64,000 bases of DNA from Colius striatus. Lineage: Eukaryota; Chordata; Aves; Coliiformes; Coliidae. The notes beneath the pieces were generated by a model. That model worked only from the letters and a program-made list of their open reading frames with translations. It had not been told where the DNA came from and did not search any database. Shown piece by piece: positions 11,095-46,039 of this stretch. The position numbers and the translations under genes were made by a program. Numbering within the stretch: position 1 is the stretch's first letter; each line of letters starts with the position of its first letter. The stretch is from NCBI RefSeq assembly GCF_028858725.1, contig NC_084768.1:30286664-30350663 (forward strand). The letters are read 5' to 3'.

Positions 11095-11787
11095 TCAGGG
11101 CTTCAGCCCTGCAGCTTGGCACGTGCCTGAGGAAGAGGCAGAGGAACTCTCGGAGCCTGCTGCATCTTCCTCGCCCACACTGTCTTCGCTTCTTTCATCG
11201 CCAGGCTTCTCGCCTTCGGTCACTGTGGTTCCCTGCTCCCCACAAGGAGATTCGTTCCTGTGGGACTGATCCTTGCGTGCTCCTCCCTTGACTCTTCTCC
11301 AGAGGACACGTGCAAGCCAAATAAAGCAGTGCAGCCCCATGATCCCGTCAAGCAGCTGGGTCCCGTCCACCTGGTCAAGGAAGTCCCGAAGCAGGCTCAG
11401 ACGAGAGGCCCTGTCTGAGGCCGTGATGTTGAAAAGAGAGAAAAGTTGACTACCGAAGTTTGCCCTGGATCCGCCCAGACCATTGCTCCCGGGCCTCTTC
11501 ATGACAATACTGTCAACATCAGCGGGCGACTTCTCCAGGAACTCAGGATTGATTGTTGTCTTGTACCCAAACAATCGGAGGGGTCTGAGAAGGCCAATGC
11601 TTCCAGGTGCTTCAGCAGCCTTGCTCTCTGCTGGATGGAGTTGCTGATTGGGGCCTTCAGGAAGGAAGAACTTGTCTGTGTCCGTGTCAGGTTGGATGAA
11701 ACCGTTAAACTTCGTGTAGATATTAATGGTGAACAGAGGGAATGTGATGAAACTGAAGGTGAGGGGGAAAAATGAGATGAGTACCAT
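11095..11787 (-). CDS. A-type array membrane protein, copy A1 (230 aa)
   Basis: I do not recognise this family. What can be seen: one uninterrupted 230-codon frame; a hydrophobic N-terminus (MVLISFFPLTFSFITF..., residues 1-24) that reads as a signal peptide or anchor; a Pro/Asp motif (IQPDTDTDKF, 31-40); an N-glycosylation sequon NIT at 120-122; a hydrophobic segment at 145-163 (LLDGIMGLHCFIWLARVLW) followed by basic residues; and an acidic Ser-rich tail (about 187-222). The start was chosen because the ATG follows the shared leader at the same place as in all paralogs. It aligns along its whole length with B-type (same length, 230 aa) and more weakly with C-type. The promoter lies just upstream at about 11905-12000. 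A small single-pass or hairpin membrane protein is the likely product; function unknown. Confidence 0.7.
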   Translation of the reverse strand: MVLISFFPLTFSFITFPLFTINIYTKFNGFIQPDTDTDKFFLPEGPNQQLHPAESKAAEAPGSIGLLRPLRLFGYKTTINPEFLEKSPADVDSIVMKRPGSNGLGGSRANFGSQLFSLFNITASDRASRLSLLRDFLDQVDGTQLLDGIMGLHCFIWLARVLWRRVKGGARKDQSHRNESPCGEQGTTVTEGEKPGDERSEDSVGEEDAAGSESSSASSSGTCQAAGLKP

Positions 11788-11904
11788 TGTGGTCTCTCCC
11801 GAGGTAAAATGTCTGGAGGAGCGAGGTTGGGCTGTCCCTCTGAGCAGAGCTCAGGCAGCGACCACCAGGCCCGAGCGGTGGCTCTGGCGTCTGAGCTGCC
11901 CAGA

Positions 11905-11995
11905 GCTGCTTATATGCCAAGTCCCGGGCTGGTGTCAGGAGAGAATCAGTGATGTCACAAAGCCTTTCCCCACCCGCCCAACCGGCGCTGGAGGC
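11905..11995 (-). promoter_or_regulatory. Shared A-type core promoter (A1)
   Basis: Read on the minus strand: a GC-box-like GGGCGGGTGGGG, a CRE-like TGACATCA (plus 11950-11957), and about 36 bp later a CATATAAGC TATA box (plus 11909-11916). The ATG follows about 125 bp after the TATA box. The same block stands before A2 (14905-14995), A3 (19888-19978), A4 (24871-24961), A5 (29854-29944) and A6 (about 32846-32936), with hardly a change. Confidence 0.7.
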
Positions 11996-12073
11996 TGAGT
12001 TGGGGAGGGGAGGGCGCATCGAGCCGGATTTTGAAGCCTGCCACGGGCTTTGGGCTGTGCCCTGAAATCTCTG

Positions 12074-12772
12074 TCAGGCCCGCTTCTTCCCCCGGTGCCT
12101 GCTGGAGGGTTTCAGCCGTGCAGCTTGGCGCTTGCCTGAGGAAGAGGCAGAGAAACTCTCATGGTGTGCCGAGGCCATTGTGCTTCCCTGCTCCCCACAA
12201 CACGCTTCGTTCCTGTGGGACTGATCTTCATTGCTCCCTTGTCCCATCCTTCTCTTCAGTCTTCCCAAGAGGTCAAGTGCAATCCAAATCAAGCAGATCA
12301 GCCACATGATTTGCAAGGCCCTATAAAGCAGATAGATCCTGTCCTCCTGGGCAAGGGAGTCCCAAAGCAGACCCTAAAGCAGAGAAAAGGACCTATTGGA
12401 GTCCACACTGTTGAAAACAGTGAACAGTAGTTTCAGGCCCTCACAAATGATGTTCTTCCTGGATCCACACAGACCAGTGCTGCCTGTGGAATTGGTGGTA
12501 ATGCTCTCAATATCAAAGGGTGGCTTGTCCAAGAACACAATTAGCCTGTATCCAAACCAGCAGAAGGGATTGCGAAGGCCAATGATTCCAGGCTCGTTGG
12601 CAGCCTCGCTCTCTCCTCGAACAAGATGCTGTTTCAGCTCTTCAGGAAGGTTGAACTTGCCTAGGTCCGTGTCAGGTAGGATGAAAATGTGGAAATGAAG
12701 AGGGAACAGAGTCACTCTGAATAAAAATAAGCCGAGAGGGAGAAATGAGAAGAGATTCCACACAAGTTTCAT
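12074..12772 (-). pseudogene. B-type array copy B1, disrupted
   Basis: Head (MKLVWNLFSF...) and tail (...SSRHRGKKRA) of the B-type protein are both present, but the frame is broken. The TATA position in its promoter also differs from the working type (reads CTGATGTGC on the plus strand instead of CTTATATGC). An almost identical copy is B5 at 30023-30721. Confidence 0.7.
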
Positions 12773-13197
12773 GGTGGTCTCCCCTGAGGGAAAAAGCCTG
12801 GATACACGAGGTAGCTTGGGCTGTCCCTCTGAGCAGAGCTCAGGCAGCGACCACCAGGCCTGAGCTCTGGCTCTGGCATCTGAGCTGCCCAGGGCTGCTG
12901 ATGTGCAACGACCTGTGCTGATGTCAGGAGACAATCAATGATACCAGAAAGCCTTTCTTCACTGCAACCCGCTCTCCCTGTTACCAAGCAAAACTGCTCC
13001 TTGCTAAACCAGGACACTTTCTTATTCTAAAATGTGTGTATTTACACTAATATCCCTGCAAAAGTGTGAGGACTATTCTTAAAAGTACCAAGGTACCAGG
13101 CTTTGTATGCAGCCCAGCCTAATGTGCAGTTCCTCAGAATCCCAGTTCCAGTTCACTGAAAGAGTTTCAATGTCAATGATGCCGCTTCTGCAGAGAT

Positions 13198-13323
13198 CTA
13201 CTCCTCCTGCAGGGCTTTCTTCACGTGAGGGTAGTGTATCAAGGATTCTACAGCTATGGAGTGGTCTGTAAGGACTAAGAAGGTTCCTTCCACTTTTCCT
13301 TCAATGGACATAAACTTCCCCAT
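13198..13323 (-). other. Short open frame (41 aa), second copy
   Basis: Starts MGKFMSIEGK and ends VKKALQEE. It lies a dozen bases after the D1 stop, on the same strand. See the 9369-9491 entry for the comparison. Confidence 0.35.
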
Positions 13324-13335
13324 TCCAGTATGGAG

Positions 13336-13574
13336 CTACAGGCACTGCTGGGTTTGGGCTTGTAATGTCTGGGAGCCTGGTTGCTTCCTCTGGGATTTAT
13401 CTTGATTGCTCACCAGTCCCTGGGGTCTCTTCACACCTCTCCAGAAGCTAGGTGCCCTCCGAGTCACGCAGAGCAGCCACGAGGTTTGCAGGGCCCTGCA
13501 AGGCAGCCAGGTCCTGTGCACCTGGGCTAGCGAGTAAGTCCCAGAGCTGGCCCAGAGGCCACACTCTTAAAAAC
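13336..13574 (-). pseudogene. D-type fragment D1 (C-terminal part of a family member)
   Basis: Encodes the conserved membrane-proximal part (TWLPCRALQTSWLLCVTRRA) and a polar tail ending QTQQCL. It lacks the N-terminal half. On its upstream side it abuts the U5 end of an LTR-like piece, so transcription, if any, would start in or beyond the LTR. Confidence 0.6.
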
Positions 13575-13812
13575 TGTGGTATGGTGGTTTAAATCCATCT
13601 GGCAGCAACCAAACCAAGAGAATGCAGAGGAAAAGGCAGAACTTTGCAGGTTGAGATCAGGACAATTTAATAGAACAACACGACGAGACAATCGAAAGCC
13701 ATAACAACAGCAAAGGAATACAGAAAACAACCTTATATACTTACTGATCATGCCATCAGCGTGGTATGGAGTAGCCTGGCCATTGCCCCAGGGCAACTGC
13801 TGAATATTAACA
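13575..13812 (-). mobile_element. Solo-LTR-like piece of an endogenous retrovirus
   Basis: The minus strand has LTR organisation: a U3 stretch, a TATATAAG TATA box, an ATTAAA poly(A) signal followed by TGTCCTGATCTCAACC, and an end reading GGTTTAAACCACCATACCACA. From memory this resembles a common avian ERV LTR. It is a fossil with no internal region beside it. It sits between D1 and the A2 3' flank. Confidence 0.55.
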
Positions 13813-14094
13813 TCAAAGCAATAAATACATTCTCACACACCTTGAGCTACATCCCTCGCTAATGATGTGAAACTTTATCCTGGCTAACAATTCTCTTGTA
13901 TCTAAGCTCCATCTTTCACTAACACATGCATGTCACACTGATGATCAGCTACTAATTCTAGGTAATGTTGGGGAGGGGCTTGAGGCTCTGAGAATTGTCC
14001 TGCTGGGCTTCAGTCCCTTGACAAGTCCTTCTCGCTAGCAGGACTGCTCCAGGCAGCACGTTGGACTGAAGGAACCCCTGGCAGGCCAGCTTCC

Positions 14095-14787
14095 TCAGGG
14101 CTTCAGCCCTGCAGCTTGGCACGTGCCTGAGGAAGAGGCAGAGGAACTCTCGGAGCCTGCTGCATCTTCCTCGCCCACACTGTCTTCGCTTCTTTCATCG
14201 CCAGGCTTCTCGCCTTCGGTCACTGTGGTTCCCTGCTCCCCACAAGGAGATTCGTTCCTGTGGGACTGATCCTTGCGTGCTCCTCCCTTGACTCTTCTCC
14301 AGAGGACACGTGCAAGCCAAATAAAGCAGTGCAGCCCCATGGTCCCGTCAAGCAGCTGGGTCCCGTCCACCTGGTCAAGGAAGTCCCGAAGCAGGCTCAG
14401 ACGAGAGGCCCTGTCTGAGGCCGTGATGTTGAAAAGAGAGAAAAGTTGACTACCGAAGTTTGCCCTGGATCCGCCCAGACCATTGCTCCCGGGCCTCTTC
14501 ATGACAATACTGTCAACATCAGCGGGCGACTTCTCCAGGAACTCAGGATTGATTGTTGTCTTGTACCCAAACAATCGGAGGGGTCTGAGAAGGCCAATGC
14601 TTCCAGGTGCTTCAGCAGCCTTGCTCTCTGCTGGATGGAGTTGCTGATTGGGGCCTTCAGGAAGGAAGAACTTGTCTGTGTCCGTGTCAGGTTGGATGAA
14701 ACCGTTAAACTTCGTGTAGATATTAATGGTGAACAGAGGGAATGTGATGAAACTGAAGATGAGGGGGAAAAATGAGATGAGTACCAT
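14095..14787 (-). CDS. A-type array membrane protein, copy A2 (230 aa)
   Basis: Intact 230-codon frame, nearly identical to A1. Visible differences are PLIFSF for PLTFSF near residue 10 and GTMG for GIMG near residue 150. The shared promoter is present. Confidence 0.7.
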   Translation of the reverse strand: MVLISFFPLIFSFITFPLFTINIYTKFNGFIQPDTDTDKFFLPEGPNQQLHPAESKAAEAPGSIGLLRPLRLFGYKTTINPEFLEKSPADVDSIVMKRPGSNGLGGSRANFGSQLFSLFNITASDRASRLSLLRDFLDQVDGTQLLDGTMGLHCFIWLARVLWRRVKGGARKDQSHRNESPCGEQGTTVTEGEKPGDERSEDSVGEEDAAGSESSSASSSGTCQAAGLKP

Positions 14788-15073
14788 TGTGGTCTCTCCC
14801 GAGGTAAAATGTCTGGAGGAGCGAGGTTGGGCTGTCCCTCTGAGCAGAGCTCAGGCAGCGACCACCAGGCCCGAGCGGTGGCTCTGGCGTCTGAGCTGCC
14901 CAGAGCTGCTTATATGCCAAGTCCCGGGCTGGTGTCAGGAGAGAATCAGTGATGTCACAAAGCCTTTCCCCACCCGCCCAACCGGCGCTGGAGGCTGAGT
15001 TGGGGAGGGGAGGGCGCATCGAGCCGGATTTTGAAGCCTGCCACGGGCTTTGGGCTGTGCCCTGAAATCTCTG

Positions 15074-15787
15074 TCAGGCCCGCTTCTTCCCCCGGTGCCT
15101 GCTGGAGGGTTTCAGCCGTGCAGCTTGGCGCTTGCCTGAGGAAGAGGCAGAGAAACTCTCATGGTGTGCCGAGGCCATTGTGCTTCCCTGCTCCCCACAA
15201 CACGCTTCGTTCCTGTGGGACTGATCTTCATTGCTCCCTTGTCCCATCCTTCTCTTCAGTCTTCCCAAGAGGTCAAGTGCAATCCAAATCAAGCAGATCA
15301 GCCACATGATTTGCAAGGCCCTATAAAGCAGATAGATCCTGTCCTCCTGGGCAAGGGAATCCCAAAGGAGCCCCAGAGAAAAGGACCTATTGGAGTCCAC
15401 ACTGTTGAAAACAGTGAACAGTAGTTTCAGGCCCTCACAAATGATGTTCTTCCTGGATCCACACAGACCAGTGCTGCCTGTGGAATTGGTGGTAATGCTC
15501 TCAATATCAAAGGGTGGCTTCTCCAAGAACACAATTAGCCTGTATCCAAACCAGCGGAAGGGATTGAGAAGGCCAATGATTCCCTCACCAGATCTCAGGC
15601 AGCGACCACCAGGCCCAAGCTCTGGCTCTGGCTTTCTCTCCAGAAGCCAGGTGCCCTCCGAGTCAAGCAGAGCAGCCACGACGTTTGCAGGGCCCTGCAA
15701 GGCAGCCAGGTCCTGTGCACCTGGGCTAGCGAGTCCCAGAGCTGGCCCAGAGGACAGGGTGGCTCAGAGGCCACACTCTCAAGAACT
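15074..15787 (-). pseudogene. B-type copy B2, chimeric head
   Basis: The B-type part (from GIIGLLNPFRWFGYRL to SSRHRGKKRA) is open. Its normal N-terminal hydrophobic head is replaced by a D-type fragment (about 15596-15787) that abuts an LTR piece. The 208-codon frame as it stands starts MQGPANVVAA and has no signal-like head. The same chimera recurs in units 2 and 3. Confidence 0.6.
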
Positions 15788-15956
15788 GTGGTGTGGTGGT
15801 TTAAACCCAGCTGGCAGCAACCAGACTAGGAGAATGCAGAAGAAAAGGCAGAACTTTGCAGGTTGAGATCAGGACAATTTAATAGATCAACACGATGAGA
15901 CAACCAAAAGCCATAACAACAGCAAAGGAATACAGAAAACAACCTTATATACCGAG
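15788..15956 (-). mobile_element. LTR piece (TATA to U5 end)
   Basis: Same LTR family as at 13575, but only the part from the TATA box to the U5 end is present. It is joined directly to the E1 fragment on the U3 side and to the D-type part of B2 on the U5 side. Fossil. Confidence 0.55.
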
Positions 15957-16150
15957 GATCCTTCTGGAGCGTTCCGAAGCAATGCTCTCTGCTGGAACGG
16001 GCTGCTGCTTCAGGTCCTCACGATGATGTGTCTTGAGTATGTCCCTGTCAGGTTGGATGTAAATGCAGACATTAATGGGGCAAGAAAACAACAAGTACAG
16101 GCCCATAGTGAGGGAGAGAACAGGGAAGAGGTTCAGCGTAGTCACTTCTG
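15957..16150 (-). pseudogene. E-type fragment E1 (N-terminal part of a family member)
   Basis: Encodes a hydrophobic head (LNLFPVLSLTMGLYLLFSCP), then the family motif IYIQPDRDILKTHH and PVPAESIASE, equivalent to residues 5-58 of A-type. It then runs into LTR sequence. It lacks the family promoter; a CR1 tail lies upstream instead. With the D-type piece across the LTR it looks like the remains of one member split by the LTR. Confidence 0.6.
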
Positions 16151-16159
16151 CAGGTAGTC

Positions 16160-16240
16160 CTGCATGGAACAAGGAATTGGACTGGATAATCCTTCTGTGT
16201 CTCTTGTAACTTGAGAGAACTCTCTGATCCTGGGATTCTG
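16160..16240 (+). mobile_element. CR1 LINE tail fragment
   Basis: GTTGGACTGGATAATCC-type CR1 3' end with TGATCCTGGGATTCTGTGG, between E1 and C1. Copies at the same place in every unit: about 21143-21223, 26126-26206, 38599-38679, and inverted at about 46228-46308. Confidence 0.65.
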
Positions 16241-16429
16241 TGGGCTGGCACTGGCTGCTGCCACCGTACAGGGACATGGGGAGCAACCAGCATGCACATC
16301 ACGGGGCTGTGGGTACCCTGCCAGCACGTGGGACCCTCCTCTTGGGACGTGGGCACCCGTGGGGCACCTCATAGCCATTGATGCCAGTTCTCTCCTGCCT
16401 CAGCTCCCTCCCCACAGGGACAGCACTAC

Positions 16430-17242
16430 TCACTTGCTCCGGATAGTGAAGGACATTGTGAACTTTTTCGATCCCTTCTTCCTCATGTGCTGATCCGGGA
16501 GATGTTTCCGGTGCAGGCGGCAGATCTGCCTCAGGTACCTGAGCATCCAGCAGCAAAATGTGCAGCGTGAGGAGAAGTGGCCCCTTCCCCCACAGAACGT
16601 GGCCATGGCAGATCTGTCCTTCTTGCCCCTTCCATGGAAGTGACAGGACCGAGGCCACAGTGTCCTTGGCAGGGCCTGGTGGGCCTGAGAAGTGTCCTGC
16701 TGGGCTTCTCTTCCTTGACGAGTCCTCTTGCCTCGCAGCACTGTTCCGCGCAGCACGTTGGGCTGAGGAATCCTCTGGCCGCACCGAGCACAAGGGCGTT
16801 TCTGCCCTGCAGCTTGGGACTGACCTTGATTGCTCTCTTGTCCCTTCCTTCTCTTCATATCTCTCCAGAGTACAAATATAACCCAGGTCACGCAGATCAG
16901 CCACGTGGTTTTCAAGGCACTGAAAAGAAGCCAGGTCCCGTCCACCTGGGCAAGGTAGTCCCAAATCTGGCCCACAGGATGGTACAGGTCAGAGGTCACA
17001 TCCTCAAAAGTAGTGGACAGTTGTTCCAGGCTCTCCGAAGCGACGTTCATCATGGATCTGACCCAGCTGCAGAGGCTGGAAATGCCAAAGCTTCCGGGCC
17101 ATTCGTCAGCTGCACTGTCTGCAGGGTCAGGTTGCTGCTTCACGTGTTCAGGAAGGTTAAACTTTTTAATGTAGAGATTTATCGGAAACAGACATGCCAT
17201 GAAGAGACCCACACTGAAGGGGAAAAATGGGATGAGTGTCAT
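16430..17242 (-). CDS. C-type array membrane protein, copy C1 (270 aa)
   Basis: Unrecognised family. The ATG at 17242 follows the shared leader in a strong context (ACCACCATGA). Hydrophobic head 1-20 (MTLIPFFPFSVGLFMACLFP); middle lacking the N-glycosylation sites of A and B; conserved core GQIWDYLAQVDGTWLLFSAL; hydrophobic segment 108-127 (SALKTTWLICVTWVIFVLW) followed by RDMKRRK. The long basic tail is rich in Cys and His (C151, C154, C200, H201, H203, C217, H222, C227, C230, C231, C241, H244), which could bind metal. A frame upstream of the ATG is open for 26 more codons but lies in the leader shared by the paralogs, so it is probably not used. A second minus-strand frame (16299-16964) and a plus-strand frame (16577-17257) are also open across the tail. 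Function unknown. Confidence 0.7.
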   Translation of the reverse strand: MTLIPFFPFSVGLFMACLFPINLYIKKFNLPEHVKQQPDPADSAADEWPGSFGISSLCSWVRSMMNVASESLEQLSTTFEDVTSDLYHPVGQIWDYLAQVDGTWLLFSALKTTWLICVTWVIFVLWRDMKRRKGQESNQGQSQAAGQKRPCARCGQRIPQPNVLRGTVLRGKRTRQGREAQQDTSQAHQALPRTLWPRSCHFHGRGKKDRSAMATFCGGRGHFSSRCTFCCWMLRYLRQICRLHRKHLPDQHMRKKGSKKFTMSFTIRSK

Positions 17243-17359: not shown

Positions 17360-17450
17360 CAGGGCTGCTTATATGCCAAGTTGTAGGCTGGTGTCAGGAG
17401 AGAATCAGTGATGTCACAAAGCCTTTCCCCACCCACCCAATAGGCGATGG
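17360..17450 (-). promoter_or_regulatory. C-type core promoter (C1)
   Basis: Same layout as the A-type promoter: TGACATCA, then CATATAAGC. Upstream is ATTGGGTGGGTGG, which adds an inverted CCAAT box that A-type lacks. Repeated before C2, C3, C4 and C5. Confidence 0.65.
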
Positions 17451-17599: not shown

Positions 17600-18110
17600 A
17601 TGTGGCTGATCTGCTTGATTTAGATTGCACTTGACCCCTGGAGAATAGTGAAGGAAGGAACAGGGGAGCAATCAAGATCAGTCCCACAGAAAAGTTCACT
17701 TTTTGGGTAGCAGTGAAGCACAGCGGCCTTGGCTGAGAAGCCTTGCCCTGTGGCCACAGCAAAGAGGGAAGCATTGGAGAAGGTGACAGAGGCAAAGCTG
17801 TCGCTCTCGGGGTCCCACAGTGCTTGGCTGGCCACCAGTAGACTCTGCTGGCCCCGCTGGCCCAGCAGCACGTGGCAGAGCAGCTTGTCGTGGGGTGGCA
17901 CCACCTCCTTGGCCTGGCCCTGCAGCAGCTCGGCCAGGTCTGGGCCAGATGGGCACTGTTCTGCTTCAGCCTTCCTGAAGAGCTGAAGCAGAACTTGTTC
18001 CAGCAGAAAGCGAGGCTGCTGAGGAGCCTGGAAGCGTTGGGCTTCTCAGTTCCATATGATAGTTCAGGTTCAGGATGAAAATCAATCCTGAGTTCCCAAG
18101 GAAGCTGCCC
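17600..18110 (-). pseudogene. F-type family remnant carrying an embedded DYNLT4 fragment
   Basis: Flanking parts (about 17600-17746 and 17963-18110) match the inverted region at 44640-44900, where they are continuous. Between them, 17747-17962 is about 215 bp of DYNLT4 C-terminal coding sequence (VPPHDKLLCHVLLGQRGQQS, then ALWDPESDSFAS), diverged from the intact gene. So DYNLT4 sequence was inserted into a family member. Not a working DYNLT4: no start region, no PP1 motif, no proper end. Confidence 0.7.
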
Positions 18111-18318
18111 AGTGACCCTGAGAACATTGGTAACGGCCCAGGAGCCCAGGCTGGGGGCTGGAGTGGACATCAGAGCAGTCACGTGCAGCCACACCTTGCT
18201 CCCTGCACACACCATGGCCAAAGACTTTGGGTGTAAGGCACAGCTTTATTGCTTGCTTGTTTTGTTTCAGCTGCTCTACAAGCAGTTCTCCAGGGCTGGC
18301 TGGAGGGAGAGGCAGGCG

Positions 18319-18567
18319 TTACTCAAAGTAGACCCAATGCACTGTGGCCACAGCAAAGAGGGAAGCATTGGAGAAGGTGGCGGAGGCAAAGCTGTCGCTC
18401 TTGGGGTCCCACAGTGCCCGGCTGGCCACCAGCAGACTCTGCTGGCCCCGCTGGCCCAGCAGCACATGGCAGACCAGCTTGTAGCGGGGTGGCACCACCT
18501 CCTTGGCCTGGCCCTGCAGCAGCTCGGCCAGGCTCTGGGCCAGATGAGCACTGCCCTGGGGACTGTA
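18319..18567 (-). pseudogene. DYNLT4 3' fragment at the unit boundary (unit 1)
   Basis: Matches residues 144-225 of the intact DYNLT4 at 40758-41435 (YSPQGSAHLAQ to VATVHWVYFE) plus its 3' UTR and AATAAA (plus tttatt near 18243). The break is at the GGGACTGTA point, where LTR sequence begins. A frame running in from the LTR stays open through it (91 codons). It lacks the N-terminal RRSS repeats and the RVSF PP1 site. Confidence 0.8.
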
Positions 18568-19770: not shown

Positions 19771-20056
19771 TGTGGTCTCTCCCGAGGTAAAATGTCTGGA
19801 GGAGCGAGGTTGGGCTGTCCCTCTGAGCAGAGCTCAGGCAGCGACCACCAGGCCCGAGCGGTGGCTCTGGCGTCTGAGCTGCCCAGAGCTGCTTATATGC
19901 CAAGTCCCGGGCTGGTGTCAGGAGAGAATCAGTGATGTCACAAAGCCTTTCCCCACCCGCCCAACCGGCGCTGGAGGCTGAGTTGGGGAGGGGAGGGCGC
20001 ATCGAGCCGGATTTTGAAGCCTGCCACGGGCTTTGGGCTGTGCCCTGAAATCTCTG

Positions 20057-20770
20057 TCAGGCCCGCTTCTTCCCCCGGTGCCTGCTGGAGGGTTTCAGCC
20101 GTGCAGCTTGGCGCTTGCCTGAGGAAGAGGCAGAGAAACTCTCATGGTGTGCCGAGGCCATTGTGCTTCCCTGCTCCCCACAACACGCTTCGTTCCTGTG
20201 GGACTGATCTTCATTGCTCCCTTGTCCCATCCTTCTCTTCAGTCTTCCCAAGAGGTCAAGTGCAATCCAAATCAAGCAGATCGGCCACATGATTTGCAAG
20301 GCCCTATAAAGCAGATAGATCCTGTCCTCCTGGGCAAGGGAGTCCCAAAGGAGCCCCAGAGAAAAGGACCTATTGGAGTCCACACTGTTGAAAACAGTGA
20401 ACAGTAGTTTCAGGCCCTCACAAATGATGTTCTTCCTGGATCCACACAGACCAGTGCTGCCTGTGGAATTGGTGGTAATGCTCTCAATATCAAAGGGTGG
20501 CTTCTCCAAGAACACAATTAGCCTGTATCCAAACCAGCGGAAGGGATTGAGAAGGCCAATGATTCCCTCACCAGATCTCAGGCAGCGACCACCAGGCCCA
20601 AGCTCTGGCTCTGGCTTTCTCTCCAGAAGCCAGGTGCCCTCCGAGTCAAGCAGAGCAGCCACGACGTTTGCAGGGCCCTGCAAGGCAGCCAGGTCCTGTG
20701 CACCTGGGCTAGCGAGTCCCAGAGCTGGCCCAGAGGACAGGGTGGCTCAGAGGCCACACTCTCAAGAACT
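20057..20770 (-). pseudogene. B-type copy B3, chimeric head
   Basis: Same D/B chimera as B2. One visible substitution near the hydrophobic segment (IMWPICLIW for IMWLICLIW), which puts a proline into the membrane stretch. Confidence 0.6.
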
Positions 20771-22225: not shown

Positions 22226-22582
22226 GGTGGTCTCTCCTGAGGGAAAAAGCCTGGATACACAAGGTGGCTTGGGCTGTCCCTCTGAGCAGAGCTCAGGCAG
22301 CAATCACCAGACCCGAGCTCTGGCTCTGGCGTCTGAGCTGCTCAGGGCTGCTTATATGCCAAGTTGTAGGCTGGTGTCAGGAGAGAATCAGTGATGTCAC
22401 AAAGCCTTTCCCCACCCACCCAATAGGCGATGGAGGCTGAGACAGGCAGGGGAGAAACTGTCCTGGCCCCATTCTCAGCACCGTCTCAGCACCAGGTACC
22501 CAGGAATGCAAACCCCACTCGTGCCCTCCTGCTGCAGCTCCAGATGGACAGGACCTGGCTGCTTTGCAGGGCCTTGCAAATC

Positions 22583-25039: not shown

Positions 25040-25753
25040 TCAGGCCCGCTTCTTCCCCCGGTGCCTGCTGGAGGGTTTCAGCCGTGCAGCTTGGCGCTTG
25101 CCTGAGGAAGAGGCAGAGAAACTCTCATGGTGTGCCGAGGCCATTGTGCTTCCCTGCTCCCCACAACACGCTTCGTTCCTGTGGGACTGATCTTCATTGC
25201 TCCCTTGTCCCATCCTTCTCTTCAGTCTTCCCAAGAGGTCAAGTGCAATCCAAATCAAGCAGATCGGCCACATGATTTGCAAGGCCCTATAAAGCAGATA
25301 GATCCTGTCCTCCTGGGCAAGGGAGTCCCAAAGGAGCCCCAGAGAAAAGGACCTATTGGAGTCCACACTGTTGAAAACAGTGAACAGTAGTTTCAGGCCC
25401 TCACAAATGATGTTCTTCCTGGATCCACACAGACCAGTGCTGCCTGTGGAATTGGTGGTAATGCTCTCAATATCAAAGGGTGGCTTCTCCAAGAACACAA
25501 TTAGCCTGTATCCAAACCAGCGGAAGGGATTGAGAAGGCCAATGATTCCCTCACCAGATCTCAGGCAGCGACCACCAGGCCCAAGCTCTGGCTCTGGCTT
25601 TCTCTCCAGAAGCCAGGTGCCCTCCGAGTCAAGCAGAGCAGCCACGACGTTTGCAGGGCCCTGCAAGGCAGCCAGGTCCTGTGCACCTGGGCTAGCGAGT
25701 CCCAGAGCTGGCCCAGAGGACAGGGTGGCTCAGAGGCCACACTCTCAAGAACT
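25040..25753 (-). pseudogene. B-type copy B4, chimeric head
   Basis: Same D/B chimera as B2 and B3, with the IMWPICLIW variant. Confidence 0.6.
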
Positions 25754-27208: not shown

Positions 27209-27565
27209 GGTGGTCTCTCCTGAGGGAAAAAGCCTGGATACACAAGGTGGCTTGGGCTGTCCCTCTGAGCAGAGCTCAGGCAGCAATCACCAGACCCGAG
27301 CTCTGGCTCTGGCGTCTGAGCTGCTCAGGGCTGCTTATATGCCAAGTTGTAGGCTGGTGTCAGGAGAGAATCAGTGATGTCACAAAGCCTTTCCCCACCC
27401 ACCCAATAGGCGATGGAGGCTGAGACAGGCAGGGGAGAAACTGTCCTGGCCCCATTCTCAGCACCGTCTCAGCACCAGGTACCCAGGAATGCAAACCCCA
27501 CTCGTGCCCTCCTGCTGCAGCTCCAGATGGACAGGACCTGGCTGCTTTGCAGGGCCTTGCAAATC

Positions 27566-30022: not shown

Positions 30023-30721
30023 TCAGGCCCGCTTCTTCCCCCGGTGCCTGCTGGAGGGTTTCCGCCGTGCAGCTTGGCGCTTGCCTGAGGAAGAGGCAGA
30101 GAAACTCTCATGGTGTGCCGAGGCCATTGTGCTTCCCTGCTCCCCACAACACGCTTCGTTCCTGTGGGATTGATCTTCATTGCTCCCTTGTCCCATCCTT
30201 CTCTTCAGTCTTCCCAAGAGGTCAAGTGCAATCCAAATCAAGCAGATCAGCCACATGATTTGCAAGGCCCTATAAAGCAGATAGATCCTGTCCTCCTGGG
30301 CAAGGGAGTCCCAAAGCAGACCCTAAAGCAGAGAAAAGGACCTATTGGAGTCCACACTGTTGAAAACAGTGAACAGTAGTTTCAGGCCCTCACAAATGAT
30401 GTTCTTCCTGGATCCACACAGACCAGTGCTGCCTGTGGAATTGGTGGTAATGCTCTCAATATCAAAGGGTGGCTTCTCCAAGAACACAATTAGCCTGTAT
30501 CCAAACCAGCAGAAGGGATTGCGAAGGCCAATGATTCCAGGCTCGTTGGCAGCCTCGCTCTCTCCTCGAACAAGATGCTGTTTCAGCTCTTCAGGAAGGT
30601 TGAACTTGCCTAGGTCCGTGTCAGGTAGGATGAAAATGTGGAAATGAAGAGGGAACAGAGTCACTCTGAATAAAAATAAGCCGAGAGGGAGAAATGAGAA
30701 GAGATTCCACACAAGTTTCAT
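30023..30721 (-). pseudogene. B-type array copy B5, disrupted
   Basis: Counterpart of B1: full head and tail present but the frame is broken, and the TATA position is altered in the same way. Confidence 0.7.
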
Positions 30722-32728: not shown

Positions 32729-33006
32729 TGTGGTCTCTCCCGAGGTAAAATGTCTGGAGGAGCGAGGTTGGGCTGTCCCTCTGAGCAGAGCTCAGGCAGC
32801 GACCACCAGGCCCGAGCGGTGGCTCTGGCGTCTGAGCTGCCCAGAGCTGCTTATATGCCAAGTCCCGGGCTGGTGTCAGGAGAGAATCAGTGATGTCACA
32901 AAGCCTTTCCCCACCCGCCCAACCGGCGCTGGAGGCTGAGTTGGGGAGGGGAGGGCGCATCGAGCCGGATTTTGAAGCCTGCCACGGGCTTTGGGCTGTG
33001 CCCTGA

Positions 33007-37396: not shown

Positions 37397-38052
37397 TCAG
37401 GGCTTCAGCCCTGCAGCTTGGCACGTGCCTGAGGAAGAGGCAGAGGAACTCTCGGAGCCTGCTGCATCTTCCTCGCCCACACTGTCTTCGCTTCTTTCAT
37501 CGCCAGGCTTCTCGCCTTCGGTCACTGTGGTTCCCTGCTCCCCACAAGGAGATTCGTTCCTGTGGGACTGATCCTTGCGTGCTCCTCCCTTGACTCTTCT
37601 CCAGAGGACACGTGCAAGCCAAATAAAGCAGTGCAGCCACATGATCCCGTTAAGTAGCTGGGTCCCGTCCACCTGGTCAAGGAAGTCCCGAAGCAGGCTC
37701 AGACGAGAGGCCCTGTCTGAGGCCGTGATGTTGAAAAGAGAGAAAAGTTGACTACCGAAGTTTGCCCTGGATCTGCACAGACCATTGCTCCCGGGCCTCT
37801 TGATGACAATACTGTCAACATCAGCGGGCGACTTCTCCAGGAACTCAGGATAGATTGTTATCTTGTACCCAAACAATCGGAGGGGTCTGAGAAGGCCAAT
37901 GCTTCCAGGTGCTTCAGCTCTTCAGGAAGGTTGAACTTGTCTGTGTCCGTGTCAGGTAGGATGAAAATGTGGAAATGAAGAGGGAACAGAGTCACTCTGA
38001 ATAAAAATAAGCCGAGAGGGAGAAATGAGAAGAGATTCCACACAAGTTTCAT
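37397..38052 (-). pseudogene. Hybrid copy: B-type head joined to A-type body (A7)
   Basis: The first part is B-type (MKLVWNLFSFLPLG...FNLPEEL). From about 37915 the sequence is A-type through to the A-type stop. The join lies in a short stretch common to both types (GCTGAAGCA), a likely point of unequal exchange. The result looks broken. The D-type fragment lies directly upstream, so the usual promoter is missing. Confidence 0.65.
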
Positions 38053-39681: not shown

Positions 39682-40038
39682 GGTGGTCTCTCCTGAGGGA
39701 AAAAGCCTGGATACACAAGGTGGCTTGGGCTGTCCCTCTGAGCAGAGCTCAGGCAGCAATCACCAGACCCGAGCTCTGGCTCTGGCGTCTGAGCTGCTCA
39801 GGGCTGCTTATATGCCAAGTTGTAGGCTGGTGTCAGGAGAGAATCAGTGATGTCACAAAGCCTTTCCCCACCCACCCAATAGGCGATGGAGGCTGAGACA
39901 GGCAGGGGAGAAACTGTCCTGGCCCCATTCTCAGCACCGTCTCAGCACCAGGTACCCAGGAATGCAAACCCCACTCGTGCCCTCCTGCTGCAGCTCCAGA
40001 TGGACAGGACCTGGCTGCTTTGCAGGGCCTTGCAAATC

Positions 40039-40549: not shown

Positions 40550-40683
40550 AGTGACCCTGAGAACATTGGTAACGGCCCAGGAGCCCAGGCTGGGGGCTGG
40601 AGTGGACATCAGAGCAGTCACGTGCAGCCACACCTTGCTCCCTGCACACACCATGGCCAAAGACTTTGGGTGTAAGGCACAGC

Positions 40684-40689
40684 TTTATT
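40684..40689 (-). terminator. Poly(A) signal of DYNLT4
   Basis: TTTATT on the plus strand reads AATAAA on the minus strand, about 70 bp after the DYNLT4 stop. Confidence 0.7.
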
Positions 40690-40757
40690 GCTTGCTTGTT
40701 TTGTTTCAGCTGCTCTACAAGCAGTTCTCCAGGGCTGGCTGGAGGGAGAGGCAGGTG

Positions 40758-41435
40758 CTACTCAAAGTAGACCCAATGCACTGTGGCCACAGCAAAGAGG
40801 GAAGCACTGGAGAAGGTGGCGGAGGCAAAGCTGTCGCTCTTGGGGTCCCACAGTGCCCGGCTGGCCACCAGCAGACTCTGCTGGCCCCGCTGGCCCAGCA
40901 GCACATGGCAGACCAGCTTGTAGCGGGGTGGCACCACCTCCTTGGCCTGGCCCTGCAGCAGCTCGGCCAGGCTCTGGGCCAGACGGGCACTGCCCTGGGG
41001 ACTGTAGACCGTGCTCTCCAGAGCACTGGCCAGGGCCTCCTCCAGCACCCGCTGCACCTGCCCCACTTTGAACTTGCAGCCTGTGTCCGGCCCCATCCTA
41101 TAAGTGTTTTCAAGGCGGGTTTTGAGGATGGGCTGGAAAAGGGGGAGCCCGGAGAAGCTCACGCGGCTGTGGAGCATCCACGGCCCGATGGAGGAGCGCC
41201 TGCCCCCTGGGGCTGCCCCGAGCGAGCTGCGGCGGCTGGGCAAGGGCGCGGGCAGCGTGCTGAGGATGGAGCTGCGGCGCGAGGGCAGGAGTAGGGGTTT
41301 GCCCTCCTCAGTGCCCCGTGCCGCGGCTGGAGGCTGGGAGCTGCGGCGGGTGGACTGGTGTGGAAGGCCTTCAGTGTTGTCTGCAGCCATCACCTTGGCT
41401 GGCAGGGCCATGTCTGAGAGTTGCTCCTCGGCCAT
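40758..41435 (-). CDS. DYNLT4: Dynein light chain Tctex-type 4, intact single coding exon (225 aa)
   Basis: DYNLT4 (TCTEX1D4) is a Tctex1-type dynein light chain that binds PP1 and is prominent in testis and sperm (family knowledge). The 225-residue frame has an N-terminal low-complexity part with four basic-Ser motifs (RRSS at 30, 53, 68 and 79), which are possible basophilic kinase sites. The PP1-docking motif RVSF is at 91-94. The Tctex1 fold follows from about 107 (ENTYRMGPDTGCKFKVGQV, RYKLVCHVLLGQRGQQS, SRALWDPKSDSFASATF) to the C-terminus VATVHWVYFE. Length fits the human protein (221 aa). The ATG at 41435 gives the expected N-terminus. It is the only complete copy here; seven partial copies lie in the array. 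The array units break within this gene at residue 144 (about 41006). Confidence 0.9.
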   Translation of the reverse strand: MAEEQLSDMALPAKVMAADNTEGLPHQSTRRSSQPPAAARGTEEGKPLLLPSRRSSILSTLPAPLPSRRSSLGAAPGGRRSSIGPWMLHSRVSFSGLPLFQPILKTRLENTYRMGPDTGCKFKVGQVQRVLEEALASALESTVYSPQGSARLAQSLAELLQGQAKEVVPPRYKLVCHVLLGQRGQQSLLVASRALWDPKSDSFASATFSSASLFAVATVHWVYFE

Positions 41436-41930
41436 ATGGATGGTCTGAAAGGAGTGGTGGCTCGTAGCTCTGAGTGTCGAGAGGTGCTGAGGTGTCCTCC
41501 AGCTTCTCTATCCCACCACCGTGACGTACCTTATGGAATGAAATTTTCCTTTAAGCAAGGACAAGGATCCAAGTGTCTTTGCAAATAGGCTCTGGCAGTT
41601 AGAAGAGGGGGATGTGGTAGTACTATTTAGGTTGGGATGGGCATAAGTCAGTATCTTCACGGAACTGATAGCTGAGTCAATGGCTGACTGCTCTGTATCC
41701 TTCAGGAGTATATTGTTCAAGAGGATAGAGCCTGATAGGGATGGAACCTCCTGCCTCAGAAGTTCCAAAAGCTGGATGGTGCCCAATTAGCATGAAATCA
41801 TCAAACATCCTCAGTAACTGGGGGAAAGGCAAAGGTGGTGGGGAGATTGCGACCACTGACTCACCGCCCACCTGCTCAATTCATACCCTAGACACACAAC
41901 AAGGCGGTGGAAGAAATGAACGGAGCAATG
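41436..41930. other. Upstream region of DYNLT4, nothing further recognised
   Basis: No coding pattern. A short part (about 41510-41555) resembles 34127-34170, where a rearranged C-type fragment ends. Confidence 0.4.
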
Positions 41931-42230
41931 TACCCATTTACATGCCAGGCAAAGGACTGCTAACCAATCCCTAAATAGAATAACAATGCATATGGATTAG
42001 AATACAGAGTATGCTAATGCTTTGCTGTATAAATACAGCACAAGAGGTACTGTTGGTGTGCCAGCTTTGTGGGCTACCACCTCAAACCCACCTCTGCACA
42101 GATATGCACTAGAGCCATACGTTGACTCTGTGTGTAGACTGGCTTATGCACACTGGGTATTGAACCCTGCTTTGTGGGACAAAATCCTCTCTGCTTTGCT
42201 TTTCCCCACCCCCTACAAATCCCAGGCCTC
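41930..42230 (+). mobile_element. Possible solo-LTR-like segment
   Basis: AT-rich stretch with a TATAAATA box at 42028-42035 and the look of an avian LTR U3-R. I could not define both ends or name a family. Weak call. Confidence 0.25.
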
Positions 42231-42830
42231 CTAGCACATGGATCCCTGCAGGGCTGGATGCAGACGACTGGGGGGACCTTGGCAGCCGCCTTCCATTCTC
42301 CAGCACCTCGTCCCCAACAGCCTCGGCCAGCTGGGGCTGATGCAGGACAGCCCCAGATAGTGCATCCAGCTCTCTGCTCTCCCATCCCCAGCCTTTCTCT
42401 GGCACGGTCAAGTGGCTCCTTCTCCTCCAGCCTCCCCAGCCCTCCTGCCTGCATCTGGGCCCACACTTACCCCTAGCCTCACTGCTGCCCTACCCGGGTA
42501 AATCCAGGGGACTTCTCTGTGCTCTGCATTGCCCAGGCCCAACCCTAGTCCTGCAAGTTGAAAGTCTGCAGTGAGCAGGGCCAAACCCATTGTGCTCCTG
42601 GAGTGTGAGGTGTTGCTATGTGACACTGCAGCACTCCGGGGCTGATCTGTGCCACAGTGTCTGTAACCCCTTGTTTCCCAGGCCCTGGACAGCCCCTTTC
42701 ACTCCTGCTCTGTCTGCTTTTCCAGCTAAGCCAGCACAGGGATATGGTGTGAAAGACCCTGTGTCAGGGGCAGTAATTGTGGCCAGAGGAGGCCCGTGGG
42801 AGGGACCCATAGTCACAGAAGCAGAGTCAT
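42231..42830. other. Intergenic, nothing recognised
   Basis: GC-rich single-copy-looking sequence without splice or coding signals that I can support. Confidence 0.45.
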
Positions 42831-42837
42831 GCAGCTC

Positions 42838-42955
42838 AGCCACAAGGTTTGCAGGGCCCTGCAAGGCAGCCAGGTCCTGTGCACCTGGGCTAGCGAGTCA
42901 GTCCCAGAGCTGGCCCAGAGGACAGGGTGGCTCAGAGGCCACACTCTCAAAAACT
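42838..42955 (-). pseudogene. D-type fragment D4
   Basis: Short copy of the D-type core, joined to an LTR piece at its upstream side. Confidence 0.5.
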
Positions 42956-43066
42956 GTGGTGTGGTGGTTTAAATCCATCTGGCAGCAACCAAACCAAGAG
43001 ATTGCAGAGGAAAAGGCAGAACTTTGCAGATTGAGACCAGGACAATTTAATACAACTAACACGAAC
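42956..43066 (-). mobile_element. LTR piece (U5 end)
   Basis: Short U5-side piece of the same LTR family, joined directly to a family promoter at about 43067. Fossil. Confidence 0.5.
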
Positions 43067-43220
43067 ATGCCCGAGCGGTGGCTCTGGCGTCTGAGCTGCC
43101 CAGAGCTGCTTATATGCCAAGTCCCGGGCTGGTGTCAGGAGAGAATCAGTGATGTTACAAAGCCTTTCCCCACCCACCCAACCGGCGCTGGAGGCTGAGA
43201 CGGGGAGGGGAGGGCGCATC
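43067..43220 (-). promoter_or_regulatory. Orphan A-type promoter without its gene
   Basis: CRE-like element and CATATAAGC TATA box are intact, but the A-type coding region that should follow on the minus strand is replaced by LTR and D-type sequence. It lies just downstream of B6, where other units have a complete A gene. Confidence 0.65.
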
Positions 43221-43273
43221 GAGGTGGATTTTGAAGCCTGCCACGGGCTTTGGGCTGTGCCCTGAAATCTCTG

Positions 43274-43966
43274 TCAGGCCCGCTTCTTCCCCCGGTGCCT
43301 GCTGGAGGGTTTCCGCCGTGCAGCTTGGCGCTTGCCTGAGGAAGAGGCAGAGAAACTCTCATGGTGTGCCGAGGCCATTGTGCTTCCCTGCTCCCCACAA
43401 CACGCTTCGTTCCTGTGGGACTGATCTTCATTGCTCCCTTGTCCCATCCTTCTCTTCAGTCTTCCCAAGAGGTCAAGTGCAATCCAAATCAAGCAGATCA
43501 GCCACATGATTTGCAAGGCCCTATAAAGCAGATTGATCCTGTCCTCCTGGGCAAGGGAGTCCCAAAGGAGCCCCAGAGAAAAGGACCTATTGGAGTCCAC
43601 ACTGTTGAAAACAGTGAACAGTAGTTTCAGGCCCTCACAAATGATGTTCTTCCTGGATCCACACAGACCAGTGCTGCCTGTGGAATTGGTGGTAAAGCTC
43701 TCAATATCAAAGGGTGGCTTGTCCAAGAACACAATTAGCCTGTATCCAAACCAGCGGAAGGGATTGAGAAGGCCAATGATTCCAGGCTCGTTGGCAGCCT
43801 CGCTCTCTCCTCGAACAAGATGCTGTTTCAGCTCTTCAGGAAGGTTGAACTTGTCTAGGTCCGTGTCAGGTAGGATGAAAATGTGGAAATCAAGAGGGAA
43901 CAGAGTCACTCTGAATAAAAATAAGCCGAGAGGGAAAAATGAGAAGAGACTCCACACAAGTTTCAT
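43274..43966 (-). CDS. B-type array membrane protein, copy B6, the only full-length open B (230 aa)
   Basis: A 230-codon frame with the same layout as A-type: hydrophobic head 1-24 (MKLVWSLFSFFPLGLFLF), FILPDTDLDKFNLPEE at 30-45, sequons NST (94) and NRS (126), core LLWDSLAQEDR, hydrophobic segment 153-167 (IMWLICLIWIALDLL) followed by GRLKRRM, and a basic Ser-rich tail ending SSRHRGKKRA where A has an acidic tail. The ATG sits at the family position after the shared leader. The promoter upstream is intact. The conserved length and core between A and B, with changed tails, suggest past selection on coding. Function unknown. Confidence 0.7.
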   Translation of the reverse strand: MKLVWSLFSFFPLGLFLFRVTLFPLDFHIFILPDTDLDKFNLPEELKQHLVRGESEAANEPGIIGLLNPFRWFGYRLIVFLDKPPFDIESFTTNSTGSTGLCGSRKNIICEGLKLLFTVFNSVDSNRSFSLGLLWDSLAQEDRINLLYRALQIMWLICLIWIALDLLGRLKRRMGQGSNEDQSHRNEACCGEQGSTMASAHHESFSASSSGKRQAARRKPSSRHRGKKRA

Positions 43967-44089
43967 GGTGGTCTCCCCTGAGGGAAAAAGCCTGGATACA
44001 TGAGGTAGCTTGGGCTGTCCCTCTGAGCAGAGCTCAGGCAGCGACCACCAGGCCCGAGCGGTGGCTCTGGCGTCTGAGCTGCCCAGAGC

Positions 44090-44180
44090 TGCTTATATGC
44101 CAAGTCCTGGGCTGGTGTCAGGAGAGAATCAGTGATGTCACAAAGCCTTTCCCCACCCGCCCAACCCGCGCTGGAGGCTG
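44090..44180 (-). promoter_or_regulatory. B-type core promoter (B6)
   Basis: Intact TGACATCA and CATATAAGC in the family spacing, unlike the altered TATA of B1 and B5. Confidence 0.65.
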
Positions 44181-44247
44181 AGACGGGGAGGGGAGGGCGC
44201 ATCGAGGTGGATTTTGAAGCCTGCCACAGGCTTTGGGCTGTGCCCTG

Positions 44248-44540
44248 AACTCAGCAGCCAGAAGGAGCTGTGCCCAGAGCTCCAGCCAAGCTGTGTGTGG
44301 CAGGCAGGACACGGCTCTGCTCAAAATCCTCACGAGGGCAAAGTGGCAGCCCACGTTAAGAGGACAGCCAAAAATGCACTCATGGTTTGGACACAAAGCT
44401 TAGCCCTGCCTGGGCCGAGGCTTGGACACACTGACCTGCAGAGATGCCTTCACACCTCAGCCCCTGAGGTTATTGTAAACAATGCTTGGCACTAGGAAAT
44501 GCAAAGACCCTCCTGCTGTCAGCCACCTTAGTTGTAAGCG
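44248..44540. repeat. Duplicated upstream flank (copy 2)
   Basis: Partner of 33007-33300. Confidence 0.8.
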
Positions 44541-44639
44541 TGTCCCATTTCTCCAGCTCAGCCTGCATTTCTGCAGTGTCTGTTCCCTCTTAACATCCAC
44601 ATGTTTATGGTAATGGGAGCCACTGGCTTAAAGTTCCAC

Positions 44640-44900
44640 ATTGACATGACACACAAATAAACAAGTTCAACCTTCCTCAAGAGCTGAAACAGCTACTCAT
44701 TCCAGCAGAGAGCGTGTCTGCCAAAGGGAATGGGGGATGTGGTCCGCTGTGCTTCACTGCTACCTAAAAGGGAACTTTTCTGTGGGACTGATCTTGATTG
44801 CTCCCCTGTTCCTTCCTTCACTATTCTCCAGGGGTCAAGTGCAATCTAAATCAAGCAGATCAGCCACATGATTTGCAAGGCCCTGCAAAGCAGCCAGGTC
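44640..44900 (+). pseudogene. F-type remnant without DYNLT4 insertion, inverted
   Basis: Plus-strand counterpart of the F-type flanks in the long units. Here the two flanks are continuous and no DYNLT4 sequence lies between them, so this looks like the pre-insertion state. Confidence 0.6.
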
Positions 44901-45027
44901 CTGTCCATCTGGAGCTGCAGCAGGAGGGCACGAGTGGGGTTTGCATTCCTGGGTACCTGGTGCTGAGACGGTGCTGAGAATGGGGCCAGGACAGTTTCTC
45001 CCCTGCCCATCTCAGCCTCCATCGCCT

Positions 45028-45100
45028 ATTGGGTGGGTGGGGAAAGGCTTTGTGACATCACTGATTCTCTCCTGACACCAGCCTACAACTTGGCATATAA
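45028..45100 (+). promoter_or_regulatory. C-type core promoter (C5)
   Basis: Inverted CCAAT (ATTGG, 45028-45032), CRE-like TGACATCA (45053-45060) and TATA box CATATAAG (TATAA at 45096-45100). The ATG is at 45227, giving a leader of about 100 nt. Confidence 0.7.
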
Positions 45101-45226
45101 GCAGCCCTGAGCAGCTCAGTCGCCAGAGCCAGAGCTCGGGTCTGGTGATTGCTGCCTGAGCTCTGCTCAGAGGGACAGCCCAAGCCACCTTGTGTATCCA
45201 GGCTTTTTCCCTCAGGAGAGACCACC

Positions 45227-46039
45227 ATGACACTCATCCCATTTTTCCCCTTCAGTGTGGGTCTCTTCATGGCATGTCTGTTTCCGATAAATCTCTACAT
45301 TAAAAAGTTTAACCTTCCTGAACACGTGAAGCAGGAACCTGACCCTGCAGACAGTGCAGCTGACAAATGGCCCGGAAGCTTTGGCATTTCCAGCCTCTGC
45401 AGCTGGGTCAGATCCATGATGAACGTCGCTTCGGAGAGCCTGGAACAACTGTCCACTACTTTTGAGGATGTGACCTCTGACCTGTACCATCCTGTGGGCC
45501 AGATTTGGGACTACCTTGCCCAGGTGGACGGGACCTGGCTTCTTTTCAGTGCCTTGAAAACCACGTGGCTGATCTGCGTGACCTGGGTTATATTTGTACT
45601 CTGGAGAGATATGAAGAGAAGGAAGGGACAAGAGAGCAATCAAGGTCAGTCCCAAGCTGCAGGGCAGAAACGCCCTTGTGCTCGGTGCGGCCAGAGGATT
45701 CCTCAGCCCAACGTGCTGCGCGGAACAGTGCTGCGAGGCAAGAGGACTCGTCAAGAAAGAGAAGCCCAGCAGGACACTTCTCAGGCCCACCAGGCCCTGC
45801 CAAGGACACTGTGGCCTCGGTCCTGTCACTTCCATGGAAGGGGAAAGAAGGACAGATCTGCCATGGCCACATTCTGTGGGGGAAGGGGCCACTTCTCCTC
45901 ACGCTGCACATTTTGCTGCTGGATGCTCAGGTACCTGAGGCAGATCTGCCGCCTGCACCGGAAACATCTCCCGGATCAGCACATGAGGAAGAAGGGATCG
46001 AAAAAGTTCACAATGTCCTTCACTATTCGGAGCAAGTGA
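45227..46039 (+). CDS. C-type array membrane protein, copy C5, inverted (270 aa)
   Basis: Intact frame despite inversion and its more distant relationship. Changes from C1 include KQEPDP for KQQPDP, ADKWPGS for ADEWPGS and RQERE for RQGRE. The Cys/His pattern of the tail and the hydrophobic segment are kept. Its persistence as an open frame outside the recently copied units is the best hint here that C-type is a real gene. The stop codon overlaps a splice-donor-like AAGTGAGT, so a spliced 3' end is possible. Confidence 0.7.
   Translation: MTLIPFFPFSVGLFMACLFPINLYIKKFNLPEHVKQEPDPADSAADKWPGSFGISSLCSWVRSMMNVASESLEQLSTTFEDVTSDLYHPVGQIWDYLAQVDGTWLLFSALKTTWLICVTWVIFVLWRDMKRRKGQESNQGQSQAAGQKRPCARCGQRIPQPNVLRGTVLRGKRTRQEREAQQDTSQAHQALPRTLWPRSCHFHGRGKKDRSAMATFCGGRGHFSSRCTFCCWMLRYLRQICRLHRKHLPDQHMRKKGSKKFTMSFTIRSK

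Follow-up and report, generated by a model that had tools for sequence, protein, structure and literature searches.

A candidate lineage-restricted family of single-exon membrane-protein genes with a shared promoter element in a mousebird genome

The window analysed here is a stretch of 64,000 nucleotides from the mousebird Colius striatus (NC_084768.1, here contig C12, positions 30286664-30350663, of a 1.21-Gb genome). It contains an array of uninterrupted open reading frames (ORFs) for putative membrane proteins of three types, A, B and C, and every intact copy is preceded by the same 26-bp promoter-like element. An earlier note on this DNA had counted twelve open copies, six A, one B and five C, and all of them are confirmed in the ORF listing. 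In window coordinates, with the length in amino acids (aa) of C counted from the ATG, they are:

11095..11787, minus strand, A1, intact ORF of 230 aa
14095..14787, minus strand, A2, intact ORF of 230 aa
19078..19770, minus strand, A3, intact ORF of 230 aa
24061..24753, minus strand, A4, intact ORF of 230 aa
29044..29736, minus strand, A5, intact ORF of 230 aa
32036..32728, minus strand, A6, intact ORF of 230 aa, the most diverged A (97% to A1)
43274..43966, minus strand, B6, ORF of 230 aa, the sole B with a head, an open frame and an intact promoter
16430..17242, minus strand, C1, intact ORF of 270 aa
21413..22225, minus strand, C2, intact ORF of 270 aa
26396..27208, minus strand, C3, intact ORF of 270 aa
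38869..39681, minus strand, C4, intact ORF of 270 aa
45227..46039, plus strand, C5, intact ORF of 270 aa, within an inverted 2.0-kb segment

The array has been amplified recently in tandem. The A copies are spaced 3000, 4983 and 2992 bp apart and are near-identical in sequence, and the inverted 2.0-kb segment of C5 is 97.7-98.9% identical to other copies. Because copies of one type are nearly identical and arose by recent duplication, the twelve ORFs represent only three independent lineages. The types themselves are old. The existence of several old open types, as proposed in the earlier note, is borne out for A, B and C, and a fourth type, F, with eight open copies, was found elsewhere on the chromosome. 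The equal length of A and B, also pointed out before, is real (both 230 aa), but it looks coincidental, because the individual length differences between the two cancel out.

All types share one layout: an N-terminal hydrophobic stretch (the head), a loop, a second hydrophobic stretch with basic residues after it, and a tail. Of the features described earlier, head, LPE motif, second hydrophobic segment and dissimilar tails are recognisable in the sequences. The reported sequons are present in the loop of A and B but none is seen by eye in C. By the positive-inside rule the loop would face outward. The head may be a signal peptide or a signal anchor and the loop would then be luminal or extracellular. 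The product would thus be a signal-anchored or type I membrane protein with a hydrophobic head and a short, fast-changing luminal or extracellular part, which would be followed by a single transmembrane helix, basic residues and an unconstrained cytosolic tail.

The 26-bp element consists of a CACCC-like box and the sequence TGACATCA, which we take to be a cAMP response element (CRE) with one mismatch to the consensus. A search of the whole genome allowing up to three mismatches, in which repeat counts are lower bounds, gave 21 sites, 20 perfect and one mismatched. Every intact ORF, 20 in all (6 A, 1 B, 5 C and 8 F), has one perfect site in front of it. The element was found at the two arrays only, and the reversed 26-bp control gave no site in the same search. 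The sites in the window are:

11949..11974, minus strand, element of A1, 161 bp before the ATG, with a TATA-like site at 11905-11921
14949..14974, minus strand, element of A2
17408..17433, minus strand, element of C1, 165 bp before the ATG
19932..19957, minus strand, element of A3
22391..22416, minus strand, element of C2
24915..24940, minus strand, element of A4
27374..27399, minus strand, element of C3
29898..29923, minus strand, element of A5
32890..32915, minus strand, element of A6
39847..39872, minus strand, element of C4
44132..44157, minus strand, element of B6
45036..45061, plus strand, element of C5
43149..43174, minus strand, orphan promoter with one mismatch in the TGACATCA core and an intact TATA-like site, running into a repeat resembling a long terminal repeat (LTR), without an ORF

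The distance from the end of the element to the ATG is 161 or 165 bp in the window and 173 bp at the first F copy, F1. Around GGTGGGGAAAGGCTTTGTGACATCAC, 36 of 37 positions are the same in A1, B6, C1 and F1. If the 26 bp changed as fast as the ORFs do in their tree, about 15-19 changes would be predicted, and about 15 between C and F alone; this estimate takes its rate from the ORFs, and the copies within a type are non-independent. Gene conversion of very short tracts is an alternative cause of the promoter identity and calls for caution. The TATA-like site is intact before all 12 ORFs of the window and in the orphan promoter, while it is lost in F. Each copy would probably be its own transcription unit with a short promoter, made up in A, B6 and C of the CACCC-like box, TGACATCA and the TATA-like site. 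The shared element before each copy suggests a fast-changing gene family that has been missed by annotation.

The second array, which holds type F, lies about 9.8 Mb from the window array on the same contig. All 25 matches of a genome search with A lie on C12; the window accounts for 17 of them, and the other 8 are at 20418803-20456780. The search with C gave 36 matches, also all on C12, one of them a relic at 18358283-18358523. This genome-wide distribution rests on the queries A, C and the promoter element, and there may be more distant members beyond the reach of the A and C searches. The F proteins are 348-823 aa long and 8 of 8 copies are open. Their tails contain 4, 9, 8, 13, 23, 11, 13 and 8 repeats of 25 residues in the eight copies, and the 75-bp repeat unit is homologous to single-copy DNA of the C tail and of the A 3' untranslated region (UTR).

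Besides the intact copies, the window array contains broken ones:

12077..12772, minus strand, B1, broken by one in-frame TAG
30026..30721, minus strand, B5, broken by one in-frame TAG
15074..15583, minus strand, B2, without head and promoter, fused to LTR-like and D-type sequence, the rest of the frame stop-free
20057-20566, minus strand, B3, in the same state as B2
25040-25549, minus strand, B4, in the same state as B2
37397..38052, minus strand, A7, a B head fused to an A body that is in another frame, without a listed promoter element
15783..15955, minus strand, LTR-like interspersed repeat inside a D-type relic, with more copies in the array

None of the broken copies is preceded by any listed 26-bp site, and in B1 and B5, the two broken B copies that bear a head, both the CRE-like and the TATA-like sites are mutated. 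The protein of B6 is 95% identical to the B1 reading, while its promoter region is 93% identical to A1 and 74% to B1. Thus B6 has an A-like promoter although its protein is B-like, and the promoter was presumably gained by recombination. Together with A7 and the orphan promoter, B6 suggests that copy number and type change through unequal exchange and promoter exchange.

These pieces also speak for a process of decay, in which a once-functional gene was copied locally by unequal exchange and the open frames are simply survivors picked by looking. Broken pieces abound (B1-B5, A7, D-type relics, core fragments and the relic at C12:18358283-18358523), and the dN/dS (ratio of nonsynonymous to synonymous rates) near 1 and the unconstrained repeat tails described below point the same way. 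The relic, about 2 Mb from array F, has stops and frameshifts, and the 26-bp element was not found around it (locus L020, matches at 4287-4642), where the best site has 11 mismatches. We nevertheless regard decay as an unlikely account of the array as a whole, as the perfect element sits before exactly the copies with an intact ORF and would not stay unchanged across types in decaying duplicates.

The LTR-like repeat raises the question of a retroelement. Of its 241 candidate copies in the genome, 40 were scored; the array holds 11 of these and the rest of the genome 29, with the repeat also present on C1, C4, C6, C7, C39 and C40. C39 carries 18 of the 29 listed outside copies; it may be the W chromosome, which is a guess. 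If the array were part of an endogenous retrovirus or retrotransposon, the repeat between the copies, which gives an ATTAAA downstream of several of them, would be its LTR, and the ORFs between the F copies, which we take to be CR1-like, would also find a place. However, the repeat interrupts a D-type relic and the family is therefore older than the insertion. Further, the promoter element is limited to the two arrays and the A and C matches are all on C12, whereas the repeat is found on six other contigs; no family ORFs lie inside full elements elsewhere in the A and C searches. As the scans of viral contigs found no relative, and Pfam nothing significant, a retroelement origin is very improbable.

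Several results indicate that the frame has been kept. In a neutral simulation of A over the A-B distance the probability of no stop is 0.0115, and 0.0026 with AT-biased mutation. When only stop mutations are considered, the chance of staying open is 0.015-0.21 per lineage for the four lineages, with a product of 7e-7 to 3e-5 for three roots, and all four lineages were open in 0 of 10,000 neutral runs per root. The gaps in the A-B alignment (12, 12, 9, 12 and 9 nt, a net 12 nt, a split gap of net 54 nt, and 30 nt) are net multiples of three. In pairs with C or F some local gaps are not multiples of three, which is partly alignment uncertainty, and on either side of them the frames match as far as the tail. 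Head and transmembrane segment together keep more hydrophobicity than under neutrality in four of the five directions that were simulated (P 0.0006-0.014), but not in the fifth (P = 0.11); as the outcome depends on the direction, we do not count it as support.

Other observations stand against a family of functional protein genes. With GC-biased mutation the probability of no stop in A is 0.051. From the head to the early tail, leaving out the C tail and the F repeats, dN/dS is 1.03 for A-B, 0.95 for A-C, 1.14 for A-F, 1.07 for B-C, 0.99 for B-F and 0.77 for C-F, and the bootstrap intervals of all six pairs span 1. Over longer stretches it is 1.05 for A-B, 0.75 for A-C and 0.86 for B-C. A codon model with 6 sequences and 188 codon columns gives lnL (log likelihood) -2214.81 if omega is free and -2215.33 if it is fixed at 1; omega = 1 is not rejected, the gain being 0.52 log units. 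Residues are invariant in 29 of 122 columns, where 18 are expected under neutrality (P = 0.007), but the excess consists mostly of codons without any change, and silent changes are seen in 6 of the invariant columns, with 9 expected. The excess of invariant columns thus sits at the DNA level, unlike what amino-acid purifying selection would give. The hydrophobicity of the head alone is within neutral drift (P 0.054-0.26). Among the F repeats (89 units) the nonsynonymous/synonymous ratio is 0.94, without constraint, so that the open repeats are no evidence of coding. From about nucleotide 575, F consists of DNA homologous to the A and B tails but read in another frame, and the tails are thus not conserved domains. 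Two AlphaFold models have poor confidence, with a mean pLDDT (predicted local distance difference test) of 38.3 and 42.7. Finally, the intact copies are few independent lineages that were noticed because they are open.

Other comparisons carry little information. The dN/dS within types is 0.93 for A1-A6, 0.29 for C1-C5 and 0.31 for A1-A5, with 3 to 14 differences, too few to weigh. The C tail is weak evidence of coding, since part of it is homologous to the A 3' UTR and other frames across it are also open. A fold search with the first AlphaFold model gave 3 matches at E <= 10 and none at E <= 0.001, which means little because the model confidence is poor.

In the earlier note, a dN/dS near 1 between types together with silence in all tissues, or a clear match to a known viral or transposon protein, was to speak against a gene family. 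The former ratio is indeed what we find, while the searches gave no such match. The pattern of a kept frame with mostly free residues fits weak constraint, or constraint and diversification mixed. Alternatively, the loci may be transcribed without being translated, as long RNAs or small-RNA precursors, the promoter being kept by selection and the frames being leftovers of an older gene. In favour of such non-coding loci, the promoter is conserved far better than the ORF and dN/dS is indistinguishable from 1. They do not explain why four old lineages stayed open where the neutral simulation expects stops, or why A and B differ in length by net multiples of three, and for us this account has a fairly low probability, similar to that of decay.

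The family has no detected relatives. Neither A (E <= 0.01) nor the A/B/C alignment (E <= 1) found any among about 5.8 billion proteins, where the candidates were 0.55-1.75 times the query length and shared short words with it. The same database does return the bird protein DYNLT4, including the copy encoded in the window. PDB yielded nothing significant (ribosomal protein S26 at E = 0.062 or worse), and neither did Pfam for A, B, C and F. No relative was found in viral contigs (IMG/VR; queries A/B/C, C and F) or in bacterial and archaeal contigs, and Rfam gave 0 matches at gathering scores. We therefore agree with the earlier note, which recognised no known family, that there is no convincing relative in Pfam, NCBIfam, PDB or the protein database. 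Weak matches of the family to DUF4834, zf-CCHC and Benyvirus_14KDa, and of F to DUF3151 and GlfT2_domain3, were set aside, and the bacterial families PP0621 (E = 0.0006, 2 of 5 members), TIGR04222 and SepX_GlpR were taken for chance. Among the matches listed from open-licence PubMed Central (PMC) papers, nothing on this family appeared by title and start of the abstract; PMC4377847 concerns songbirds.

Longer proteins fell outside the candidates of the protein search, and the ITPRIP-like proteins were therefore examined as a look-alike. Like the present family, ITPRIP and ITPRIP-like proteins of birds have long uninterrupted ORFs, a head, a short ectodomain, one transmembrane helix with basic residues, and many copies. 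Mab-21/ITPRIP-like frames of 300-580 aa are amplified in this genome, with 39 matches, 25 of them on three contigs (17 on C167, 6 on C166 and 2 on C181), which may be parts of a sex chromosome or microchromosome, again a guess. The shared layout and the expansion would allow A, B, C and F to be truncated ITPRIP-like proteins without the Mab-21 domain. However, the similarity is not above chance: the best BLAST hit with 11 proteins has E = 0.57, and against five ITPRIP-like N-termini of the same genome (head, ectodomain and transmembrane segment) the hhalign probability is 1.1% and the shuffle P = 0.49. No Pfam match naming the Mab-21 domain (PF20266) was seen in A, B, C or F, and the family also differs in its chromosomes and its tail. 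Such an origin is not supported, and we consider it the most improbable of the explanations discussed.

The candidate transcript ends differ between copies. An AATAAA lies 699 bp after the stop in A1 and 273 bp after it in F1; the regions are homologous and the hexamers are about 5 nt apart when aligned. In A2, A3, A6, B6, C1, C4 and C5 the first poly(A) signal is an ATTAAA that, by its position, lies in the LTR-like repeat. B6 and F1 have further ATGs ahead of the start, and in A1 and C1 none is seen after the TATA-like site. Pyrimidine-rich stretches ending in CTCTTCCTCAG in the A and B tails (in B6 at about 43334-43358, and equivalents) resemble splice acceptors. So does CTTTTTCCCTCAG directly before the ATG in B and C (in B6 at about 43978-43990), which is lost in A. 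A spliced form of the transcripts is possible from such sites.

The array flanks the DYNLT4 gene on both sides.

40758..41435, minus strand, DYNLT4 (Tctex-type 4), ORF of 225 aa within the array region, with a Tctex-1 domain match

Its protein has 257 database matches; among the best 120, those that are named belong to birds and turtles. A tree of 34 proteins, hand-chosen from these best 120, places it with that of the mousebird Urocolius indicus (support 100/99). Pieces of the DYNLT4 3' end have been copied into array units, at 17744-18567 and at about 22.7-23.5, 27.7-28.5 and 40.2-41.0 kb, and an AATAAA near 18.25 kb lies within such a copied piece. Each unit holds two such pieces, about 6% apart, which implies at least two partial duplications of DYNLT4. 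Further out, Pfam finds a BACK domain at 2.2-2.8 kb and, slightly below its cut-off, a kinase fragment at 53.1-53.7 kb. By the gene order in human, these probably belong to BTBD19 and PLK3. At 58754-60007 (plus strand) lies a 417-aa open frame with leucine-rich repeats (Pfam LRR_8, 1.5e-16), in which a transmembrane segment can be made out by eye. Near array F lies a Siah-Interact_N domain (E 3.3e-15), presumably of CACYBP, and an ORF (locus L016) which we take from its sequence to be KIAA0040. As a relative of the family KIAA0040 is unsupported, with an hhalign probability of 0.3%.

Weighing all this, we suggest, with a confidence slightly better than even, that the two arrays contain a lineage-restricted, promoter-driven, single-exon orphan family of membrane-protein genes, seen so far in one mousebird genome. 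Its members have open frames, a conserved promoter and two hydrophobic segments; they have been amplified recently in tandem, and promoters and bodies have recombined among them. From the sequence it may be proposed that they are transcribed and translated, that the proteins have the topology given above, and that they have a cell-surface role, with selection on them being weak or diversifying.

As to where they would be expressed, male germ cells are our preferred guess, to which we give rather less than an even chance; it is based on the ORF lying in one exon and on the CRE-like core promoter. PMC3428356 reports that 62 of 246 testis-specific genes of mouse have uninterrupted ORFs, and PMC3285179 lists 496 CREM-bound mouse genes (30.8%) with a one-mismatch CRE in the promoter. 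The family resembles mouse testis-specific single-exon genes in combining an intronless ORF with a one-mismatch CRE in the core promoter, here in 20 of 20 intact ORFs. The resemblance is one of gene anatomy and we claim no homology.

Tandemly amplified, lineage-specific orphan families typically lack detectable relatives and show recent local duplication, exchange of promoters and bodies, and high protein change. The present family differs from orphan families in general in having two arrays about 9.8 Mb apart with one unchanged promoter element, and in its four kinds of tail, including a coding minisatellite. It can further be speculated, although we find it doubtful, that this is a database-unknown bird family older than the split of the types, in which selection would hold one promoter cassette together with the membrane-anchored frame. 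The exposed part and the cytosolic tail would be unconstrained or pushed to change, and the tail could grow by whole repeats of 25 residues. The proteins might then serve cell-surface recognition in germ or immune cells of the mousebird.

The arrays illustrate how homology-based annotation overlooks fast-changing single-exon families. Here it is the promoter rather than the protein that identifies the members, with 20 perfect sites for 20 intact ORFs and one mismatched site. If the genes are transcribed, they would provide a system for how orphan membrane proteins persist at a dN/dS near 1. They would also show how promoter exchange keeps copies going, as in the A-like promoter of B6 compared to the mutated ones of B1 and B5, and how a coding minisatellite varies among near-identical neighbours.

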